Assembly: GCA_012728995.1 (NCBI GenBank)
Contig: JAAYEB010000303.1
Span: 1 to 32,815 of the forward strand
Direction: 5' to 3'
Source of the DNA: Fibrobacter sp.
Lineage (GTDB): Bacteria; Fibrobacterota; Chitinivibrionia; Chitinivibrionales; Chitinispirillaceae
DNA length: 32,815 nt
The notes under the pieces were generated by a model that made no database searches, was not told the DNA's origin, and saw nothing but the letters and a program-made list of their open reading frames with translations. Positions within the stretch are counted from its first letter, which is position 1. Each line of letters opens with the position of its first letter. The position numbers were made by a program, and so were the translations under genes. Shown one piece after another: positions 3,642-21,611 of the stretch.

Positions 3642-5372
3642 ATGATGAAAATTACACAAATAATCAAAACCAAAACCTTTTTTGTACTCATTTTTGTATT
3701 ATCATGCATATCCGCATCTTATTCTCAGACATTAAGCGGAAAAGTAGTTGATGAAGATAACAACGGTATCGAAAACGCACTCGTTGAACTAGCAAATATT
3801 ACCCTGTCCACTACAACAGATAATGAAGGCACCTGGAGTATCACAGTTCCAAGCAGCATTGAGCCATTTATCAAAAAGCACCTGAGGCCTGTACCTGTGC
3901 TTAAATCAAACATCATTTATTTTGCTGTAAACAGCCCGAATCAACAGATAAAGGCGGACATATACACCCTTAACGGCAGTTTTATATATAATGTTATAAA
4001 TAAAAAAGTGAAATCCGGGTTTTACAGTCTCAACCCCTTAAAACGAACTCTCAATCCCAATATCTACGTTGTCAAATTTCAGATCGGCAATAAAACCACC
4101 TGTTTCAGGCTTCTTGTAACAAACAGGCCAGAGCTGTCTGAAATTACCCTTCAAAACAAAAAAGACTCGGAGATCACAGGTATGCTTCGAAAACAAACTG
4201 TTGTAATAGATACGGTAAAAGCATCAAAAGACGGCTACTCGCCAGCTTCGGTACCTGTAAGTTCATACAATGAAGGACCCTTGACCATAACATTGAAAAA
4301 ACATATCCCGTCATATTATCTCAATCCACCCGATCCCTGTTATAATCAGTTTCACGTTGATGGATGCATACAGGGTGATCCCGGTTCTGCATGCGGTGGT
4401 AACTGTATAGTAGCAAACTCCTGCAGTCCTCCCGAAGACGGTAGTAAAGCTAATCTTGTAAAGACATTTATCTGCCCCAGATTCATGCTTTTCAGCACCG
4501 AAATGATTCAGGCAGCTAAAGACGATGCCCGCTCGTACGGCTGGGATGAAAATAACCCGCCTTTTAACTACGGTGTGGTCGGACATGATCCCGACATAGG
4601 TGGGATTGATGACGGCCCGAGCAGTTGTTGCCAGTGTTACCAGATCATTTATGAAAAACCTGAGCCAAGCTCTCCGCAGCCACCGGATTTACCCTACCCC
4701 AAACCCCTTATTGTGCAAAGTTTCAATACAGCAGCCAGCGGTCCGTACGGTTTTGATGTGTTCATGGGTGCAGGCGGATATGGAGCATTTAATTCCTGTT
4801 ATGATGACCCCGACTTCAGCAACACATCCAATTTTGATGAGTTTATTTACGATGAATATCCGTATCAGAATCCAAACAGCGGTGGCATATCGTTTCTAAG
4901 ATATCCGGAACTGTGTATGGATGGATGGCCGCCAACCATTGAAGGAATCCAGTCAGCCGCTTGTCAGGAAAAAATCAGGGAACTTTGTAATCAGGCTCTG
5001 GTCAATTCTTCAGAGCAAATCACTGAAGACACAAGAAGATCTTGCATTCAAAGTAATCAGATCGAATCGTTATACCATCAGAACTGGGATGTTATTGTAA
5101 AACGGGTACGATGTCCCGACAACCTTACTAGGGTTACCGGATGCAGGCTCATTGAAGACGATCTGCCTCTTCCAAGCCCCGAAATACAAACACCGGCAGA
5201 TGCACTCGCTGACGGCTCCTTTTTGTCCGGTTATCACACAACAACAATGCAGGATTGCTGTAAACCAACATGCGCATGGTCAGACTGGACAGAAAATTAT
5301 GGCCTTCCGGTAGACGGTGAATGGAACTCATTCTATTCGTGCGACAAAAACGGGTTGCCTTTTACAAAATAA
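3642..5372 (+). CDS. Secreted GH45-like endoglucanase with permuted motif order and N-terminal T9SS-CTD-like module
   Basis: This encodes 576 residues; ATG at 3642 or 3645, no strong ribosome site. Signal peptide 1-29 ends SYSQ. Residues 30-70 are a carboxypeptidase-regulatory-like strand set (SGKVVDEDNNGIENALVEL), which seems to resume at 190-219 (DTVKASKDGY...LTITLKK). Between them, 99-159 resembles a T9SS type A C-terminal sorting domain (ADIYTLNG...GFYSL...NIYVVKFQIGN). From about 230 the protein is Cys-rich and GH45-like: CCQCYQIIY (329-337), VQSFNT (359-364), GFDVF (370-374, Asp372 as general acid) and GGYGAFNSC (378-386). These are followed by CPDNLTRVTGCR (491-502), DCCKPTCAW (538-546, Asp538 as general base) and CDKNGLPF (567-574). 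In classical GH45 the DCCKPSC block is N-terminal; here it is C-terminal. Likely cleaves beta-1,4-glucan outside the cell. Confidence 0.8.
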   Translation: MMKITQIIKTKTFFVLIFVLSCISASYSQTLSGKVVDEDNNGIENALVELANITLSTTTDNEGTWSITVPSSIEPFIKKHLRPVPVLKSNIIYFAVNSPNQQIKADIYTLNGSFIYNVINKKVKSGFYSLNPLKRTLNPNIYVVKFQIGNKTTCFRLLVTNRPELSEITLQNKKDSEITGMLRKQTVVIDTVKASKDGYSPASVPVSSYNEGPLTITLKKHIPSYYLNPPDPCYNQFHVDGCIQGDPGSACGGNCIVANSCSPPEDGSKANLVKTFICPRFMLFSTEMIQAAKDDARSYGWDENNPPFNYGVVGHDPDIGGIDDGPSSCCQCYQIIYEKPEPSSPQPPDLPYPKPLIVQSFNTAASGPYGFDVFMGAGGYGAFNSCYDDPDFSNTSNFDEFIYDEYPYQNPNSGGISFLRYPELCMDGWPPTIEGIQSAACQEKIRELCNQALVNSSEQITEDTRRSCIQSNQIESLYHQNWDVIVKRVRCPDNLTRVTGCRLIEDDLPLPSPEIQTPADALADGSFLSGYHTTTMQDCCKPTCAWSDWTENYGLPVDGEWNSFYSCDKNGLPFTK

Positions 5373-7587: not shown

Positions 7588-9156
7588 TTATCTGGTAAAA
7601 ATACCCATGGGCATAATAATCTCTTCCATGGAGATACCACCATGTTGAAAACTATTACGAAACTGAGTCTTGTATTGTTCGTTTTTTTCCGGTGGAACAA
7701 AGTAATAATTTTCCTTTGCAATAAAGCAGGACTTGTCCTGTATGATATCTGGTAATCCAAAATGAACCGGATTCCGTATAAACAATGCCCTTCTTTCATC
7801 ACAGGAAATATCAGATCCGAATTTGTACCTCAAATTTTTGCTCCAGTTTTGGACACGGTATAATTCGGTACTGCGGCTGCAAAGGACATTTCCGTGATCT
7901 GAAGTAATAATCAACCTGCAATCTTTCGAAACAAGGTCTTTCATGATTTTCAAGACAGCAGACCTCTCAAACCAGGATTTTGTAAGTGTTCTTATCCCGC
8001 TTTCATCACGTATCAATTCTTTCAGAACACCTCTTTGCGGCTGATTATGGCTCAAAAAGTCAAAAAAGTCAACTACACAGACATTGACTCTTGATTTCTT
8101 GCATTTATTAATCTGTTGAATTATCTGATTCGAGTCAACAGAATCGGATAAGTATAGAAACCATGGTTCATTATTATTGATTTTTATTCCATTTGCAGTT
8201 AATAAGCCGGAGAGGAGCTTTTTTTCAAAAGGGCTGGTCTGCTTTTCGTCTTCAATACCAGTTTTCCAGATATTTTTATCTTTTTTGGAAATTTCGGCCG
8301 GCAAGAACCCGGACAAGAATGATATCCGGGAAAACACGGAAGCAGTTGGAATAATTGAGAAAAAGTTATTTTTCTGTACATTAGAGAATTGTCGCAGTAT
8401 CCTCTCCATTATAATATATTGATCATATCTCATCCCACTAAGTACAAATAAAAAAGTGGTCTTGAACTGATCCTGGTTTTCAAGCACAATCTTCTGCAAT
8501 GCGTCATGACCAAGAACAGGTGGCTCTCTCTCTCCTTTTAACCAGCTGACATAATTTTCAACCAGATAATCTGAAAAAACTGCATTACTATCCGATTTCT
8601 GCCCGGCATGAGTCTGCCGCAAACCTTCATCATCTGTTTTATCAAGCTCCAGATCCCAATAGACCAGATTGTCATATATCTTTATCCAATCTTTATAAGA
8701 CAGATAACCGCCAAGAGAAGTACGGTTTTCGGAATAATTGCGGATAAATTTTTGTGAAATCTGATTTGAAAGAATCCGTCTGGACTCAAGCAGTCTTTTA
8801 CATACAAGAAGAATCTGGCTTGGATTAACAGGTTTGGTCAGGTAAGCATCAATTTTTTTCCCAAGAGCACTCTCCATCACGTGTTCTTCCTCATTTTTGG
8901 TTACCATAACCACAGGAAGATCCGGATTAATCTGTTTTATCTCCTCAAAAGTAGTAATACCATCTTTTCCAGGCATCCTCTCATCAAGAAGCACTATATC
9001 AAATTCCCGGGGATTCTGTTCAATTAAATGAATGGCATCATCACCACTGAAAACCGGTGTAACACAATACCCTCTTGTTTCAAGAAACATTATATGAGAT
9101 CTGAGAAATTCTATCTCATCATCAACCCAGAGAACTTTTTTCTTTCCTCCGGACAT
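7588..9156 (-). CDS. porX: PorX-like response regulator with PglZ (alkaline-phosphatase-fold) output domain
   Basis: This encodes 522 residues from ATG at 9156, chosen because a G-rich AGGGGGG ribosome site sits just upstream; longer starts would lie inside the kinase gene. The receiver (1-125) has the acidic pair Asp12-Asp13, phospho-acceptor Asp58 (VLLDER) and Lys108 (TKP). A helical linker (130-230) contains WDLELD and NYVSWL blocks typical of PorX. The PglZ part (235-522) keeps RYDQ (243-246), PTA with nucleophile Thr271, DFLSH (366-370), SDHGN (419-423) and FQHGGISMEE (503-512). In PorX of Bacteroidota, from memory, the first motif reads IDNLRYDQ; here it is LSGMRYDQ, so the metal-ligand Asp is Ser240. 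ARN after PTATQY is replaced as well. PorX regulates T9SS genes in Bacteroidota; here phosphodiesterase activity may be weakened. Confidence 0.92.
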   Translation of the reverse strand: MSGGKKKVLWVDDEIEFLRSHIMFLETRGYCVTPVFSGDDAIHLIEQNPREFDIVLLDERMPGKDGITTFEEIKQINPDLPVVMVTKNEEEHVMESALGKKIDAYLTKPVNPSQILLVCKRLLESRRILSNQISQKFIRNYSENRTSLGGYLSYKDWIKIYDNLVYWDLELDKTDDEGLRQTHAGQKSDSNAVFSDYLVENYVSWLKGEREPPVLGHDALQKIVLENQDQFKTTFLFVLSGMRYDQYIIMERILRQFSNVQKNNFFSIIPTASVFSRISFLSGFLPAEISKKDKNIWKTGIEDEKQTSPFEKKLLSGLLTANGIKINNNEPWFLYLSDSVDSNQIIQQINKCKKSRVNVCVVDFFDFLSHNQPQRGVLKELIRDESGIRTLTKSWFERSAVLKIMKDLVSKDCRLIITSDHGNVLCSRSTELYRVQNWSKNLRYKFGSDISCDERRALFIRNPVHFGLPDIIQDKSCFIAKENYYFVPPEKNEQYKTQFRNSFQHGGISMEEIIMPMGIFTR

Positions 9157-9175
9157 TATACCCCCCCCTGATTTA

Positions 9176-10486
9176 TCAGACATTTTCCGTATTGACCGGA
9201 AGATCAATACAGAAAACAGTTCCTTTACCTTTTTGAGAACTTTTAACATAAATCCTGCCTTTATGATAGTCCTCAATAATTCTTTTGGCAAGAGTCAGCC
9301 CAAGTCCCCATCCCCTCTTTTTTGTAGTATACCCAGGTACAAATATTCTTTTCTGCGCTTCCCATGAGATTCCATTTCCGTTGTCAATAAACAGAATACG
9401 AAGTATTCTTTTTTCGGAAACATATTCAGTTTTAATCTCAATTAACCCATTATTCGATTCAATAGCATCAATAGAGTTTTTTACCAGATTCTCAAAAACC
9501 CATTCAACAAGATCATGGTTGACATTTACATCCGGTGTTTTTGATGTATTACACCTGATTTCAATCTTTTTTCGCAAAAAAGGCATTCTCATCTTGAAAT
9601 AAGCAGCAATATCATGCACAATAGTATTCACAGATAGTGGAGAAAGTAAAGGAACCGAACCTATCTGACTGAATCTTGACGTTACTTTTATAAGCCGCTT
9701 GAGATCGTTCTCCATATCATTACATATTGTTTTTGCCTGTTCCATAAATATTTGTGGATCTAATGGCGAACTGGTTTCCTGAATGGTTTTAATATATTCA
9801 ACCCATCCCATAAGTGAAGAGATCGGAGTTCCAAGCTGATGAGCGGTTTCTTTAGCCAAACCAACCCATAACCTGCTTCGTTCTGTATTTCTAATGCTGT
9901 TAAAAGAAAGATATGCCAATCCTATCAGTAATGCAACAAGTCCGATTTCAAAAAATGGCATTAGAGTCAAACTGCGAATCAGAGGTTGGTTACCAAAAAA
10001 AAGATATCCGAGCTGCGTATTACTACCTTTTATGATAATTGGATGCGGGTCATAGGTGTTTTTAAACTCCATGATTTTCTTACGCAAAAACTGCTCTGTT
10101 TCGGGTGTAAGTGTAGTCTGTTCAAGTAATTTCCTTTTATAAAACGGCCCATTGTAGATATTTTCCCAGATAACGGGGTTCCAGGCTGTATCAGTAATTA
10201 TTACAGGGTTTTGTGATTTATGAAGAACCGTTTGAAGTGCATCATTAATCTTTTCATGTTCCACGATACCTGATACAGCAGTACCGATAAGCTCTGCGTA
10301 GGCTCCAGTTACAATTATTGTCTCATCCTTTAACCGGCTGATCAATGTACATGTAAATACATTGTATAAAATTAATGCAGCAGCACAAATCAGAAAAAGA
10401 AGATTTTTACCAATGAATGGCTTGATTGAAAGCAAAAATGAGTAAAACGTCGGTGCTGTAACGACTTTCCCGAGAAAGTTTTTCAC
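9176..10486 (-). CDS. porY: PorY-like sensor histidine kinase
   Basis: This encodes 436 residues. It has a first membrane helix at about 29-50, an extracytoplasmic part of about 120 residues, and a second helix at about 173-196. The dimerisation/phosphotransfer domain carries His216 in [18 protein letters not shown], a wording characteristic of PorY-type kinases. The catalytic domain has the N box [11 protein letters not shown], a DNGNGI motif and the [13 protein letters not shown]2 loop, so it looks active. The start is GTG at 10486, overlapping the serS stop by 4 bp, and its stop lies 20 bp before the porX ATG. Genes directly adjacent in this order imply a cognate PorY-PorX pair; in Porphyromonas the two genes are unlinked, as I recall. 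Confidence 0.9.
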
Positions 10487-12689: not shown

Positions 12690-14294
12690 TCAGCTTTTTC
12701 TTTGCTTTGTTCCAGTATTTTTCTCATTTTTCATTAAAACTACCCGACCTCGTTCGTTGCGTTTTTTCTTTAATTTCATTTCTGAAATCACTTTATAATA
12801 AAAAGGTGCACAATAATCAAATTTTTCGCTCAGATTTCTGATCATATAATTTAGTTCAATGATTTTTTCTTTTATAAGTATATCATTTACATAAGATTTG
12901 ATTACTTCCCGCTGGTCTTCGATTATTACCGGTTCAGCACCTTTTTTAAGTTTGATAAAGACTCTGTTACCGCGCACGGATTTACTTAAAAAGTTAAGAG
13001 TATTGATTTTACTCCTGATACCAGCTTCGCTTACTCCATACTTTCGGATAAAATGATTGACCACATTTGCAAGCGGCAATCTTTCTTCGCCAAGCATCTC
13101 AATAAGTTCTTTGCTAAGCTGTGTAATGGACAGGTTTCCCCTGATCTTGGTTTGTCTTTTAATACCCATGTTTCTGGCCATTGCACTTGTGACATAGGTT
13201 TCCGGCGCTATTCTGACATAATCTTTTGTTCCCAGGATAGAATGTAGTGTACCGGGTTTCAAATCTGACCTGGTACGAACTATGTGTTTATAAATCTTAT
13301 CAACAGTCAAAGGCTTGTTGAATTTTTCGAAAACTGAAGCCACAACTTTATCGTAGGTACTGGTATTATATTTCCATTCTTTCAAAACCCAATAACCGGT
13401 TCTGCCTACAGGCTTGAATCTATCATCAAGACTTAGATTCAGACTTAGAGCAGATCTGTATCCAGCCCGTTTAAAAAACTCTTCCCGCAACTCGTTTAGG
13501 TGCATTTTGTCTTTTCTCTCATACAAAATTCTATAAGCAATATCAGCTGCTTTAAGGACACCAGAATCAGGTACGGTGTATTTTAACCCTTCTTTGTCAC
13601 GCAGCGGCTCAAGCCCGGCGATTTTACATAATTTATCCAGTAATTCACTATCTTTTATTTTGAATACCTGCTCCAGTTTTTTTGCCTTTACAGATAATTT
13701 CTGTTTCAGACAGTATCTTCGTATATCCCTGATTCTTTTCTGGTATTTAATCATTTCATCTTCACTGGTGTTACAATAATAGAGCTTGCCTTTATATGTA
13801 AAGTGTCTTATGCCATACAACTCTATTATAAGAGATATTGCCCAATCAGGTAGATTCATTTTGGAATTTTTGAACATCTTCAAAAATTCATCCTGAGGAA
13901 ATATTATCTCAGAACTCAGTTTCTGGGCAACTGACCGAAACAACCTGGCAGTTTTTGAATTGAGTATTATTTTGCAATACCTGTCTTCATAACTTCCATT
14001 GTCAATTGTTTCTTTAATACAGTCCAGAAGATAGTTCTGTTTTTGTCGAATTCTTTCACGAGTACACCCATACCGTGCACCAATCGATTTTAGAGTTTCA
14101 ACCTTCTTACCAATTCCAAATCTGGTATAAATGATATCAATGTAAATATCAGATTCCTGCGGATTCCTTCTGTTCTCCTTATAAGCGTTTACCAGCTCCG
14201 TAATGAAACTCTTAAGCTGTATATCAAGATCCTTATCGGCTTTTGCCGGAACAATAGTAGTTTTTTTATTTAGCAAATCACTCCAAGCAGTCAT
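12690..14294 (-). CDS. Orphan DNA-binding protein: sigma-70 region 4-like HTH plus tandem winged-helix modules
   Basis: This encodes 534 residues. Residues about 52-95 contain ETLKSIGARYGCTRERIRQ (66-84), a clear sigma-70 region 4.2-type helix-turn-helix. No region 2 is seen, so it is not a classical sigma factor. Three later segments look like HARE-HTH/winged-helix modules: 247-305 (DIAYRIL...DDRFKPVGRTGYWVL), 313-370 (VVASVFEKFNKPLTVDKIY...) and 388-448 (ELIEMLGEERLPLANVVNHF...). The C-terminus is Lys/Arg-rich. GAGG precedes the ATG by 5 nt. Both flanks are long AT-rich spacers, so the gene is monocistronic. Similar sigma-like/HARE-HTH proteins are known mainly from genomic context; the function could be transcription regulation or defence/mobile-element control. 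No enzyme motif is visible. Confidence 0.75.
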   Translation of the reverse strand: MTAWSDLLNKKTTIVPAKADKDLDIQLKSFITELVNAYKENRRNPQESDIYIDIIYTRFGIGKKVETLKSIGARYGCTRERIRQKQNYLLDCIKETIDNGSYEDRYCKIILNSKTARLFRSVAQKLSSEIIFPQDEFLKMFKNSKMNLPDWAISLIIELYGIRHFTYKGKLYYCNTSEDEMIKYQKRIRDIRRYCLKQKLSVKAKKLEQVFKIKDSELLDKLCKIAGLEPLRDKEGLKYTVPDSGVLKAADIAYRILYERKDKMHLNELREEFFKRAGYRSALSLNLSLDDRFKPVGRTGYWVLKEWKYNTSTYDKVVASVFEKFNKPLTVDKIYKHIVRTRSDLKPGTLHSILGTKDYVRIAPETYVTSAMARNMGIKRQTKIRGNLSITQLSKELIEMLGEERLPLANVVNHFIRKYGVSEAGIRSKINTLNFLSKSVRGNRVFIKLKKGAEPVIIEDQREVIKSYVNDILIKEKIIELNYMIRNLSEKFDYCAPFYYKVISEMKLKKKRNERGRVVLMKNEKNTGTKQRKS

Positions 14295-16832: not shown

Positions 16833-18581
16833 TTATACTCCAACCGTCAGCGGTAATTTTTCAAGGACATTTCCCAATAGTCTCTTATTTAAATTTTTCA
16901 GCCATTCATCCATATCTTCTGTTGATTCAATTGCATCAATATGAGAAATACTCTCTGCAGCTTCAGCAAAACTGATATTAGCAATAATTTCTTTTATCAG
17001 AGGAATATTTCTTGGTATTACGCTAAACCTTCGAAGTCCAAGCCCCACCAGCAAAACTGTATGAATAGGGTTACCAGCCATTTCTCCACAAACAGAAAGT
17101 GACATTCCATTATCGTTGGCGCATTTAATTGCAGTCCGGATTATCCTGAGAAAAGCAGGTTCAATAGGATTGTATAAATAATTAACTTTTGCGTTATTTC
17201 GATCAGCAGCACTCAGATACTGAATAAGATCGTTTGTTCCTATTGAAGCAAAATCAATCTCTTTTAAAAAAGTGCTCATCTCAAGTATGGCAAGAGGTAC
17301 TTCAAATAAAACACCGCATTTAGGCCTTTTCAAACCCAGTCGTGAAGCAACTTTTGTGATAAAGGCTTTTGCTTCCAGCCACTCCTGCAATGTTGTAACC
17401 ATTGGCATCATGATAGAATACTCACGATTAATTCCAGCTTTTAATATAGCCGTAACCTGAGTCTCAAAGATCTCTTTGCGTTCCAGAAATATCCTGATAG
17501 CCCTCCAACCCATAAACGGATTGAATTCAAGAGGCATGTCAAAAAACTGAGGTATTTTATCACCACCGATATCCATTAATCTTATAACACACGGTTTGTT
17601 ATCAGCTTTATCCAGAATCTGCTTGTAATACTCATATTGAGCTTTTTCGGAAGGCATTTCTTTGCGATTTGATAAAAGATACTCTGTTCTGATAAGTCCG
17701 ATTCCATCAGCACCGAACTCTTTGGCATCATCAACATCGTCTGCAAGAGAGATGTTGGCAAGAACATCAATCTGGATCCCATCGGTAGTGTAGACCGGTC
17801 TTCGCCATTTTGATTTCAGTTCCTCCAGAGTCTTTTCACTGTCTGTTTGCCTTTTAAAGCGGGAAACAACTGTAGTTGAAGGCCTTACATAAACTATACC
17901 TTTTTCCGCATCAACAAGAACCTGGTCACCCGGATTGATACTTTCTGAAATATTCTGTAACCCGGAAACTACAGGTATGGAATATGACCGTGCAAGGATA
18001 GCTGCATGTGAAGTTTTTCCACCGCTGACAGTAACAACTCCCTGAATTTTAGATTTGTCATAAGACAAAATATCCGTGGGAGTAAATGTACGCAACACAA
18101 CCAGAATAACAGGCTCCATAAAAGTTTTCGCCCTTCCGTTATCCTGATAAAGATAAGAGATCAGTTTTTCACAAACCTCAACCATATCGCTGCTTCGTTC
18201 CTTAAAATATGCAGTTCCGGCAGAATTGAACCGATTAATAAAATCATTGGAAACAAGCCTGATTGAAGTCTCAAGATCATAGAGCTTTGAAGAAATCGTT
18301 TCTACTATCTGACCAATAAACGCAGGATCATCAAGAATATGTTCATATATGTTCAAAACAGATACGTCAACGGTAGTACCACCCAGATCAGTAATATATT
18401 GTCGATAATTTTTTTTTGCCTTTTCACGTATCTCATTAAAACGCATTATCTCATCACCAACATCCTGTCGTGATATGGACACCGTAGAGGTCTGCTGCAC
18501 TGCCCTGCCTACAAAATAGGCCTTCCCTACCCCCCATCCAGAAACTACCGGTATCCCGCTAAGTTTAATCTCTTTTTTCAT
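16833..18581 (-). CDS. ptsI: Phosphoenolpyruvate-protein phosphotransferase (PTS enzyme I)
   Basis: This encodes 582 residues, normal for enzyme I, which moves phosphate from PEP to HPr. There is no GAF domain, so it is not PtsP. The HPr-binding helical domain is at about 30-145. The phosphohistidine loop is GGKTSHAAILARS with His192 (usual form GGRTSHTAI). The PEP-binding barrel (255-570) has GIGLIRTEYL, MDIGGDK, GWRAIR, IGTNDLIQY and CGEMAGNP with the catalytic Cys. All key residues are present, so it should be active. ATG overlaps the phosphorylase stop by 4 bp (ATGA) and lacks a strong ribosome site of its own, indicating translational coupling. No HPr gene is in the window. Confidence 0.95.
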   Translation of the reverse strand: MKKEIKLSGIPVVSGWGVGKAYFVGRAVQQTSTVSISRQDVGDEIMRFNEIREKAKKNYRQYITDLGGTTVDVSVLNIYEHILDDPAFIGQIVETISSKLYDLETSIRLVSNDFINRFNSAGTAYFKERSSDMVEVCEKLISYLYQDNGRAKTFMEPVILVVLRTFTPTDILSYDKSKIQGVVTVSGGKTSHAAILARSYSIPVVSGLQNISESINPGDQVLVDAEKGIVYVRPSTTVVSRFKRQTDSEKTLEELKSKWRRPVYTTDGIQIDVLANISLADDVDDAKEFGADGIGLIRTEYLLSNRKEMPSEKAQYEYYKQILDKADNKPCVIRLMDIGGDKIPQFFDMPLEFNPFMGWRAIRIFLERKEIFETQVTAILKAGINREYSIMMPMVTTLQEWLEAKAFITKVASRLGLKRPKCGVLFEVPLAILEMSTFLKEIDFASIGTNDLIQYLSAADRNNAKVNYLYNPIEPAFLRIIRTAIKCANDNGMSLSVCGEMAGNPIHTVLLVGLGLRRFSVIPRNIPLIKEIIANISFAEAAESISHIDAIESTEDMDEWLKNLNKRLLGNVLEKLPLTVGV

Positions 18582-20989
18582 AAAACCGGTACCTTCCAGA
18601 TATCTTTAATGTATTCAGCAGTCACCCTGTCACTTGAAAACCAGCCGACACGGGCAATATTCAGCAGAGATTTTCTGGTCCATTGCATTTTATCAGCAAA
18701 CAGTAAATCCACCTGCTCCTGCTGCTTGATGTAATCATTAAAATCGACTAGCACAAAATACCTGTCCGAATCACGCAATGATGAAATCAGGGGGTTAATA
18801 GAAGACCCCTCCTGAATCTGTGATAAATAGGTATCAAGAAGACTGAAAATATTCTGCAATGATTGATCAGATGAAAGTAGTTCACAAGGATGATAATTCT
18901 GAATAGATGAAGTAAACTCACTGTCTTTTCCAAAAAGAAAAATGTTTTCCTCTCCAACTTTTTCTGCCAACTCAATGTTCGATCCACTTTTGCTTGCAAT
19001 AGTCAAAGCACCATTAAAAGCATATTTCATATTAAAAGTACCCGCAGCTTCAAATGAAGCTGTTGAAATCTGTTCCGAAAGATCAGCACCTGGTACCATC
19101 TTTTCAGCCCAGCTCATTCCAAAATTGGGTACGAATATAACCCTGATTTTATCATTTACCTGTGGATCGTTGTTAACAAGCTCAGCTGTAACATTTATAA
19201 GCTGAATAACCTGTTTTGCCAGAAAATCAGACGGTGAAGCTTTTCCGGAGAAAATATGCAGTCTCGAAGACTCAAGATTTTTTCCCGATTTGACTAAAAG
19301 ATAACGATGCAGGATATTAAAGATGTGAAGAACATGTCTTTTACATGGATGAATTTTTCCGCTTTGTATATCATACATAAACGTTTCATCCGGATCAAAC
19401 CGGCATCTTTCCCTGATCTGAGAACTTAATCTGACTTTTGCATTTTTTTTAACATCATAGAGCGATTTTAAAAATTGCATATCATCAGCATACTGCTCCA
19501 GATCCAATAGCTTTTCAGGTTTTGTTACCCATTGATCTCCGATAGCAGAAGTAATCAGTTCTGATAATTCAGGATTAGCACACAAGAGCCACCTGCGATG
19601 AGCAACACCTACGGTTTTGTTGCAGAACTTTTGAGGATTATATTGAGAAAAAACCGGAAACAGTTTTTTTTGAAGTAAATCAGACTGAATTCTTGAAATG
19701 CCGTTAACAGAAAAAGAACCAACAACAGCAAGATGTGCAAGCCTTATCCTTTTTACTTCACCCTCTTCTATAAGTGAAAGTGAACGGACCATTTCCGGAT
19801 CATTACTGAAACACCTTCGAACATTATCAAGATGAAACTGATTAATGTCAAATATTATCTGCATGTGTCTGGGAAATATTTGATTGACTTTATAAACAGG
19901 CCAGGTCTCCAGATTATCTTTGGAAACAGCATTACTTGTGTATGCAAATACATTTGAAGTAATTCTCCATGCCTCTTCCCATGGAACATTTTCCACATCA
20001 ACCAGTAAACGCATCAATTCCGGAATTGCTAATGCACATCTACTTCCATTGAGTTGAATCACCACTTTTTTATCGAAATCAAGTATGTTACTGTTATTTA
20101 CCTTATACCGCCGCAAAATATCCTGAAGCGCAGCAGAGACAAAAAAATACTGCTGTTTCATTCTTAATTCAGTAGCACGCCTTACATCTTCTTCTGGAAA
20201 CAGTACCTTTGTAATTCTACCATACTGCGATTTTTCCTCACATGCCCTTATATAATCACTATGATTGAAATAATCAGGCAAAAACTCTTCTGAAGGCCTT
20301 GCAGACCATAATCTGAGTGTATTAACAATATCATTGTTGTAACCCGCAACCGGTACATCATAAGGAATAGCATGAACCTGTTCCTGAGTTTCCCACTCTG
20401 CAGGACCTAATGGCCCACCACCACCACCACAACTGCATTGCCCACCGAACCGTACCAGACAGGAGTATTCCGGTCTGATAATTTCCCAAGGATGCCCCCT
20501 GTGAAGCCAATCATAAGGACGTTCGATCTGAATACCATTTTTAATACTCTGCTGAAACTGAGCATAATCATATCGTAACCCATACGCCATTGAAGGTATT
20601 CCTATGGTCGCCATCGACTCCAGATAACATACAGCGATGCGTCCCTTTCCTGTATTTCCCAATTCAAAATCATCTTCCTGGTGTACAAGTTCGTCAAAAG
20701 AAAAACCCAAAGAATTAACCGCAGAAATTAAAGGTTTTTCTATACCTAAATTGATCATATTCTGGCGAAGACTTTTGCCAAAAATGTATTCCATCGAGAG
20801 ATAATAAATCCGGCGAAGATTACGTGTGTGGTATTCCTGTTGCGTTTTTATCCAGTTATCAACCATTTCACTGCGAACAGCATATGCAAGCGCCATGTAT
20901 TTATCATATGATGTTGCAGTCGATTCATCTTTGGCAAGAAAGTAACGAAGATACCCATAATATGTTTCTTTCAGGTTTTTATTTTCCAT
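18578..20989 (-). CDS. glgP: Divergent glycogen/starch phosphorylase paralogue with altered active-site motifs
   Basis: This encodes 803 residues from ATG at 20989, chosen for AGGAG 6 nt upstream rather than the longer frame from 21058. The fold is unmistakable: RIYYLSMEYIFGKSL, VNTLRLWSA, PRHMQIIFDIN, ADLSEQISTA and FSSDRVTAEYI. The PLP lysine is kept (Lys655 in FNMKYAFNGALT). Invariant motifs are changed, though: GNGGLGR is GNTGKGR (111-117) and LNDTHPAL is LNGSRCAL (313-320). NGVTPRRW is VGVAHRRW (460-467), QVKRIHEYKRQ is QSGKIHPCKRH (542-552), and SGTGNMK is AGTFNMK. These include the active-site His and a phosphate-binding Arg. A Gly-rich loop (CSCGGGGGPLGP) is inserted near residue 185. 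It may be catalytically weak or regulatory. Coupled to ptsI. Confidence 0.88.
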   Translation of the reverse strand: MENKNLKETYYGYLRYFLAKDESTATSYDKYMALAYAVRSEMVDNWIKTQQEYHTRNLRRIYYLSMEYIFGKSLRQNMINLGIEKPLISAVNSLGFSFDELVHQEDDFELGNTGKGRIAVCYLESMATIGIPSMAYGLRYDYAQFQQSIKNGIQIERPYDWLHRGHPWEIIRPEYSCLVRFGGQCSCGGGGGPLGPAEWETQEQVHAIPYDVPVAGYNNDIVNTLRLWSARPSEEFLPDYFNHSDYIRACEEKSQYGRITKVLFPEEDVRRATELRMKQQYFFVSAALQDILRRYKVNNSNILDFDKKVVIQLNGSRCALAIPELMRLLVDVENVPWEEAWRITSNVFAYTSNAVSKDNLETWPVYKVNQIFPRHMQIIFDINQFHLDNVRRCFSNDPEMVRSLSLIEEGEVKRIRLAHLAVVGSFSVNGISRIQSDLLQKKLFPVFSQYNPQKFCNKTVGVAHRRWLLCANPELSELITSAIGDQWVTKPEKLLDLEQYADDMQFLKSLYDVKKNAKVRLSSQIRERCRFDPDETFMYDIQSGKIHPCKRHVLHIFNILHRYLLVKSGKNLESSRLHIFSGKASPSDFLAKQVIQLINVTAELVNNDPQVNDKIRVIFVPNFGMSWAEKMVPGADLSEQISTASFEAAGTFNMKYAFNGALTIASKSGSNIELAEKVGEENIFLFGKDSEFTSSIQNYHPCELLSSDQSLQNIFSLLDTYLSQIQEGSSINPLISSLRDSDRYFVLVDFNDYIKQQEQVDLLFADKMQWTRKSLLNIARVGWFSSDRVTAEYIKDIWKVPVL

Positions 20990-21611
20990 GGTACTCCTGA
21001 AAACATTCTTTGTTTTTCGCCATTGTGTTTGACATCCAAACAGGGTAAAACCTGACATTTTCCTGCATTTCTTTTAATATTGGAAATATTCCCCAAATTA
21101 TAACGACCTGGAGTCTAATTATTGCGAAAAGAATACTTAAGACCGAAGATATCCGTTTCCGTCATAAGTATACATCTTAATTAAAAAGCATGCCACAATA
21201 AAAATTTAAGAAAAAATTAGAGCTTATGAGATTAAAAAAAGCAAAAACAAATTGAAAATTACTCAGATTACACCCTTAATGTCAATTTTTATCTAAATAA
21301 AAGCCATAATAGAATTGATAGAGTAAACCTATACCCGTCTCCCGATGCTCATCAGCACCATAAATCCAGAAACCACAAAAGCAATGTCCAAAATTTTAGT
21401 CACCAGGCAACACAATCAGATCGATATGCTTTTTTTTCGTGATCGTTTGCAAAAGAATATACCAAGCACACATAGGAGTCCCAAATAAACCATTAATAAC
21501 CTGAAAGTTTTTAATTCACACAATCAATAATTGTTATTGATCACTGAATAAATTTAATTATCAACTTGTCTGTATTTGGAAAAGAAACTATATTTAAAAT
21601 CTTACATTTCA
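20990..21611. other. Intergenic region upstream of the phosphorylase and tRNA-Ser
   Basis: About 620 bp of AT-rich sequence without a coding frame. The only clear element is the tRNA-Ser promoter at 21566-21594. Confidence 0.5.
21566..21594 (+). promoter_or_regulatory. Probable tRNA-Ser promoter
   Basis: TTGTCT (21566-21571), a 17-nt spacer, then TATATT (21589-21594), ending 17 nt before the tRNA 5' end. Spacing and position fit a sigma-70 promoter. Confidence 0.5.

Follow-up and report, generated by a model that had tools for sequence, protein, structure and literature searches.

The window analysed here (32,815 nucleotides, from a Fibrobacter sp. assembly in the family Chitinispirillaceae) contains a 576-residue open reading frame encoding a putative signal peptide, a nested N-terminal module, and a C-terminal domain carrying the sequence blocks of glycoside hydrolase family 45 (GH45), an industrially used cellulase family (Table 1). 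The nested module is a CarboxypepD_reg-like domain in two halves (residues 30-70 and about 187-219), divided by an insert resembling a T9SS sorting domain (residues 83-158). The first-pass annotation of this DNA proposed that the GH45 blocks occur in rotated order, and all of the motifs that it named are where it placed them: CCQCY starts at residue 329, VQSFNT at 358, GFDVF at 370, GGYGAFNSC at 378, CPDNLTRVTGCR at 491, DCCKPTCAW at 538 and CDKNGLPF at 567, with the DCCKP block near the C-terminus.

Table 1. Features of the open reading frame and its GH45-type domain; HiCel45A is Humicola insolens Cel45A
Feature	Coordinates	Strand	Evidence or remark
Whole ORF, 576 aa	3642..5372	+	Signal peptide, nested N-terminal module, permuted GH45-type domain
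Putative signal peptide, residues 1-29, KTKTFFVLIFVLSCISASYSQ	3642..3728	+	Predicted from sequence
Nested N-terminal module: CarboxypepD_reg-like domain split by T9SS-sorting-domain-like insert	3729..4298	+	PF13620, E 5.1e-8; TIGR04183 weak, E 0.018
Permuted GH45-type domain, residues 223-576	4308..5369	+	Same unit kept in 39 sequences whose N-terminal parts are unrelated
New N-terminal segment, residues 223-305	4308..4556	+	Matches classical columns 37-74 only after rotation; Cys conservation
CCQCY, residues 329-333, equivalent to HiCel45A C86-C87-A-C89-Y90	4626..4640	+	
VQSFNTAASGPYGFDVFMGAGGYGAFNSC, residues 358-386	4713..4799	+	Motif position, profile alignments
Asp372, equivalent of HiCel45A Asp121 (general acid)	4755..4757	+	D in 39/39
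CPDNLTRVTGCR, residues 491-502, closing block of classical GH45s, containing the counterparts of C189 and C199	5112..5147	+	
Seam linker, old C-terminus to old N-terminus, residues 503-532	5148..5237	+	
Relocated classical N-terminal segment, residues 533-576, TTTMQDCCKPTCAW...FYSCDKNGLPF	5238..5369	+	hhalign: classical columns 2-36, E 6.6e-7
Asp538, equivalent of HiCel45A Asp10 (general base)	5253..5255	+	D in 39/39

We gathered 39 near-full-length permuted domains, from which all conservation counts are taken. Both catalytic aspartates, claimed at the outset to be preserved, are present in the window protein and throughout these relatives. Every domain has a single DCC block, located 33-47 residues before its C-terminus and separated from the TGC motif by a spacing to the catalytic Asp with a median of 36 residues, and within the relocated segment the Asp and four Cys are invariant. 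Twenty cysteine columns are nearly invariant – compared with 14 in HiCel45A – and those of the core (C329, C330, C332, C386, C491, C501, C539, C540, C544 and C567) are kept in at least 38 of the 39 sequences. The new N-terminal segment contributes C233, C242, C251, C255, C261 and C278, and by alignment and cysteine pattern is an expanded version of the classical region that follows the CD.N block. A signal peptide and the nested module precede the permuted domain in Chitinispirillaceae, and a lipobox with an SD-rich or G/S/T-rich linker precedes it in Myxococcota; since the N-terminal partners differ between phyla, the permuted unit is itself the domain.

The single-sequence Pfam test is the weak point in the case for rotation. 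The Pfam profile PF02015 matches the window protein with an E-value of 1.7e-5 and 25.3 bits, below its curated cut-off of 27, and the isolated domain with 20.4 bits; at E 1 it finds no match in the domains of L037 and the paralog L039, and one close Myxococcota member clears the cut-off when neighbouring stretches are included (28.3). Rotating the single window sequence raises the Pfam score only from 20.4 to 21.1 bits (a gain of 0.7), probably an effect of large insertions, which interrupt the local alignment, and the gain from rotation is visible only in profile-to-profile comparison. Aligning the protein to the GH45 structure 5h4u with phmmer gives two stretches whose order is exchanged (query 521-548 pairs with chain 12-39, and query 297-388 with chain 70-154), and a profile built from 13 permuted relatives finds ten GH45 chains among solved structures (E 4.8e-8 to 1.4e-4), the top three alignments each consisting of three stretches in rotated order.

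Profile-to-profile comparison with hhalign initially used 18 permuted and 65 classical sequences, the latter picked by a motif demanding YWD.C, such that conservation at that motif in part reflects the selection. Query columns 96-268 align with classical columns 75-219 (E 2.3e-12) and columns 308-350 with classical columns 3-36 (E 2.2e-6), in swapped order, and with all 39 permuted sequences the same two-piece, swapped-order result is obtained (E 2.7e-12 and 6.6e-7). The native order scores 88, and when the permuted profile is cut at the seam both pieces align at full length in one alignment, with scores peaking at 115.9-118.6 (18 sequences) or 122.5-124.1 (39 sequences). Elsewhere in the 18-sequence scan, the score is 88 for cuts within the domain's first quarter or its last 30 columns, 64-77 for cuts in the core, and 92-98 for cuts between the FD and CP blocks. 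A doubled classical profile similarly gives a single alignment through the seam, scoring 122.1 with 18 sequences and 126.2 with 39, and when the 47 relocated columns are shuffled the score falls to a mean of 90.6 (maximum 90.7), with none of 200 trials reaching the unshuffled value. Because no shuffle reproduces the score and the same arrangement recurs in 39 sequences, the window protein, as judged from sequence comparison, contains a rotated GH45 domain and not a chance resemblance.

Cysteine losses bear on the same question. One sequence, L041, has lost both C330 and C501, the counterparts of HiCel45A C87 and C199, which form a disulfide; C233 and C251 are both lost in five other permuted sequences. 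The C330/C501 co-loss supports the same spatial arrangement as in the classical fold, although with 20 cysteines a second random loss would strike the named partner with odds of 1 in 19, and the observation is thus supportive but not decisive. AlphaFold yields a pLDDT of 34 from the single sequence, and AF2 with a 13-row alignment a pLDDT of 60 and a pTM of 0.67; this second model has six core strands, one of them (model residues 306-314) within the relocated segment, but a Foldseek search with it returned no significant match, the top hit being MltA with an E-value of 4.6. Of the original proposal of an intact but permuted six-strand barrel, the rotation is borne out by the swapped profile alignments, the 39 sequences and the cysteine co-loss, and the barrel itself is not confirmed by a model of this confidence. 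We conclude that, very probably, the product of the gene is a secreted glycan hydrolase and its catalytic domain a GH45 double-psi barrel that has undergone natural circular permutation.

Two other accounts of the C-terminal DCCKP block are much less probable. It might be what remains of another GH45 domain that was truncated, or a strand swapped in trans between two chains, and permutation does normally proceed through tandem duplication, with tandem classical GH45 genes present in Myxococcota; but the Asp and four Cys of the relocated segment are invariant in all 39 sequences, none of which has another DCC block, and this argues strongly against a remnant. We consider this account improbable, and a truncated second domain was rejected on the count of one DCC block per domain. 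Less credible still, to the point of being barely tenable, are chance or convergent motifs and an assembly or frameshift artefact, for which the subthreshold Pfam score and the pLDDT of 60 could be cited. Assembly error and chance motifs are ruled out by the profile E-values, the shuffle control, and the recurrence of the arrangement in 39 sequences from two phyla, each in one open frame; several assemblies from different sites show the same arrangement.

In the permuted GH45 protein, the classical opening segment – the first strand, the general-base Asp, and the cysteines of the DCCKP and CD.N blocks – follows the closing segment, with a linker of about 30-40 residues joining the old termini and the new N-terminus lying just past the old CD.N block. 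The chain most likely forms the same barrel, the relocated C-terminal strand fitting back into place and being held there by the same disulfide bonds (predicted pairs 539-386, 540-261, 544-329 and 567-278). Asp538 and Asp372 would then face each other across the cleft, positioned to hydrolyse a beta-1,4-glucan or related plant polysaccharide with inversion. For any relative of GH45, the default expectation is inverting hydrolysis through the Asp dyad. Endoglucanase activity is likely, but uncertain because Tyr8 is replaced by Met (Met536) in all 39 sequences and Asp114 is lost, and a changed substrate would be the main alternative.

That alternative shares the permutation and differs in function only: the dyad is kept, and a remodelled cleft serves another polysaccharide or chemistry, with Asp316 possibly substituting for Asp114. 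It draws on the Tyr8 replacement, on an invariant Gly314-His315-Asp316 (39 of 39), and on the absence of the Asp114 column from the permuted alignment together with the replacement of His119. Asp10, Asp121, Asp114, Tyr8 and Ala74 are important residues in beetle GH45s, and among beetle proteins in which Asp114 or Ala74 is altered there are xyloglucanases as well as some for which no activity was detected (PMC6509783). Only the Asp dyad among these five is kept in the permuted proteins, in which Ala74 aligns with the invariant Gly314, albeit by eye, in the rotated alignment, and within a divergent region that weakens this comparison. Moreover, the same genomes retain classical GH45s, and the permuted copies need not duplicate their role. 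The intact dyad and core cysteines speak against a shifted function, which we nevertheless regard as a substantial minority possibility.

With the fungal GH45 enzymes (HiCel45A, PDB 2eng/3eng/4eng; also 6mvi, 5glx and 1oa7) the permuted proteins share both catalytic Asp, the CC.C, FD...GG.G..N.C, CP...TGC and DCCKP blocks, and the core cysteines, but differ in the rotated order of the blocks, in having Met for Tyr8 and no Asp114, and in carrying about 140 extra residues. Classical bacterial GH45s of Fibrobacterota and Myxococcota have a homologous domain and occur in the same genomes – one, L116, with the same nested module – but unlike the permuted form they have DCCKP first and keep Tyr8 and Asp114, and in those examined the cysteine of the closing TGC block is missing, as is its partner. 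Given a score under the Pfam cut-off, a changed order of blocks and two active-site residues that are not kept, we class the permuted proteins as a permuted family related to GH45, not as plain GH45 members.

Natural permutation of glycoside hydrolases has precedents. The 1,3-1,4-beta-glucanase (GH16) of Fibrobacter succinogenes is naturally circularly permuted (Tsai 2003, as cited in PMC2395249), and is likewise a secreted glucanase from the same phylum, but has a jellyroll fold and belongs to a family unrelated to GH45. GH70 glucansucrases and GtfB-type enzymes are permuted relatives of GH13 (PMC9732880); here too a permuted catalytic domain has persisted as a family, but with a TIM-barrel fold, alpha-glucan chemistry and no relationship to GH45. 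The double-psi barrel fold has itself been cited as a permutation case (Castillo 1999, as cited in PMC2395249). In a search limited to open-access papers we found no earlier description of a natural GH45 permutant.

A search of 168 Fibrobacterota genomes recovered ten full-length permuted sequences including that of the window, all of one family. One group comprises the window sequence and relatives at 74-81% identity, the other a set of paralogs at 48-51%; three genomes, including that of the window, have both. Classical GH45s are widespread among Fibrobacterota, with PF02015 matches in 123 of the 168 genomes, and co-occur with permuted ones in the same genomes. An earlier contig scan with a single-protein query gave no match, but an alignment query against a collection of 84,980 species did, identifying further members in records labelled Chitinispirillaceae, Fibrobacter, Myxococcales and Deltaproteobacteria. 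The permuted form is common in two orders reached through the Myxococcota matches (6 of 14 and 13 of 18 genomes), and rare in an even draw of 331 Myxococcota genomes, where it is present in one genome besides the query's own. The 39 permuted sequences thus span Chitinispirillaceae (Fibrobacterota; two paralogs) and Myxococcota, and the permuted GH45 is not peculiar to Fibrobacterota, most of the diversity found being in Myxococcota. Scanned plasmids and viral contigs contained no relative. We saw no unpermuted cousins with the new N-terminal segment, and profile A1 matches classical GH45s only over the core. One permuted copy (G506:C189; L125 and L126) is split into two frames, by a frameshift or a sequencing error.

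A tree of rotated sequences places the permuted form on one side of a branch with an SH-aLRT of 100, and the stem between permuted and classical GH45s is very long; the topology is consistent with one origin of the permuted form. Circular permutation usually arises by tandem duplication, fusion and trimming, and we infer that route here. Tandem classical GH45 genes adjoin in Myxococcota genomes with permuted ones (L091 and L098 in G170:C344; L097 and L100 in G173:C58) and fit it, and no fused tandem GH45 in a single frame was present as an intermediate among the loci examined. Within the permuted-family tree, rooted by midpoint, Chitinispirillaceae sequences occupy two places among those of Myxococcota, and its starred branches cannot be explained by fewer than two changes. 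The simplest reading would be two transfers from Myxococcota-like donors into Chitinispirillaceae followed by local capture of the nested module, the direction of transfer being tentative under a midpoint root. More speculatively, the permutation and the remodelling (Met for Tyr8, the invariant Gly-His-Asp, the missing Asp114) might together define a separate enzyme family with a new substrate or mechanism, which arose in or near Myxococcota and passed twice to Chitinispirillaceae, both copies gaining the same local secretion module; as a whole we consider this scenario rather unlikely.

The whole nested unit, CarboxypepD_reg-like domain plus T9SS-like insert, is present in 16 copies in the window's genome and has the appearance of a module for secretion or anchoring that is specific to this lineage. 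It is carried by the window gene, paralog L039, the classical-order GH45 L116, a PETase-like esterase and others, including FGE-sulfatase-type and histidine-phosphatase-type proteins (window 3729-4298; L111-L118). Its presence on both the window gene and L116 means that a single genome has both circular orders behind the same module, a matched pair that would allow a direct test of how chain order affects folding, stability and catalysis. The low profile scores also mean that profile annotation undercalls permuted GH45s, the window protein lying under the Pfam cut-off and the paralog's domain going unmatched.

Several other genes of the window merit mention. A response regulator-PglZ fusion (window 7588-9291, minus strand) has a counterpart at positions 100-1728 of L043, near a permuted GH45 in both genomes, and the neighbourhood is partly conserved between the two. 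A carbohydrate phosphorylase (18578-21058, minus strand; PF00343, 825 bits) lies beside a PTS enzyme I gene, and its catalytic motifs (QLNGSRC, AYTSNA, NKTVGVAHRRW and EAAGTFNMK) look degenerate relative to those of Escherichia coli MalP, making it a candidate pseudo-phosphorylase. A further gene (12690-14294, minus strand) encodes a 534-residue protein whose sole match is to a sigma-70 region 4-like domain.
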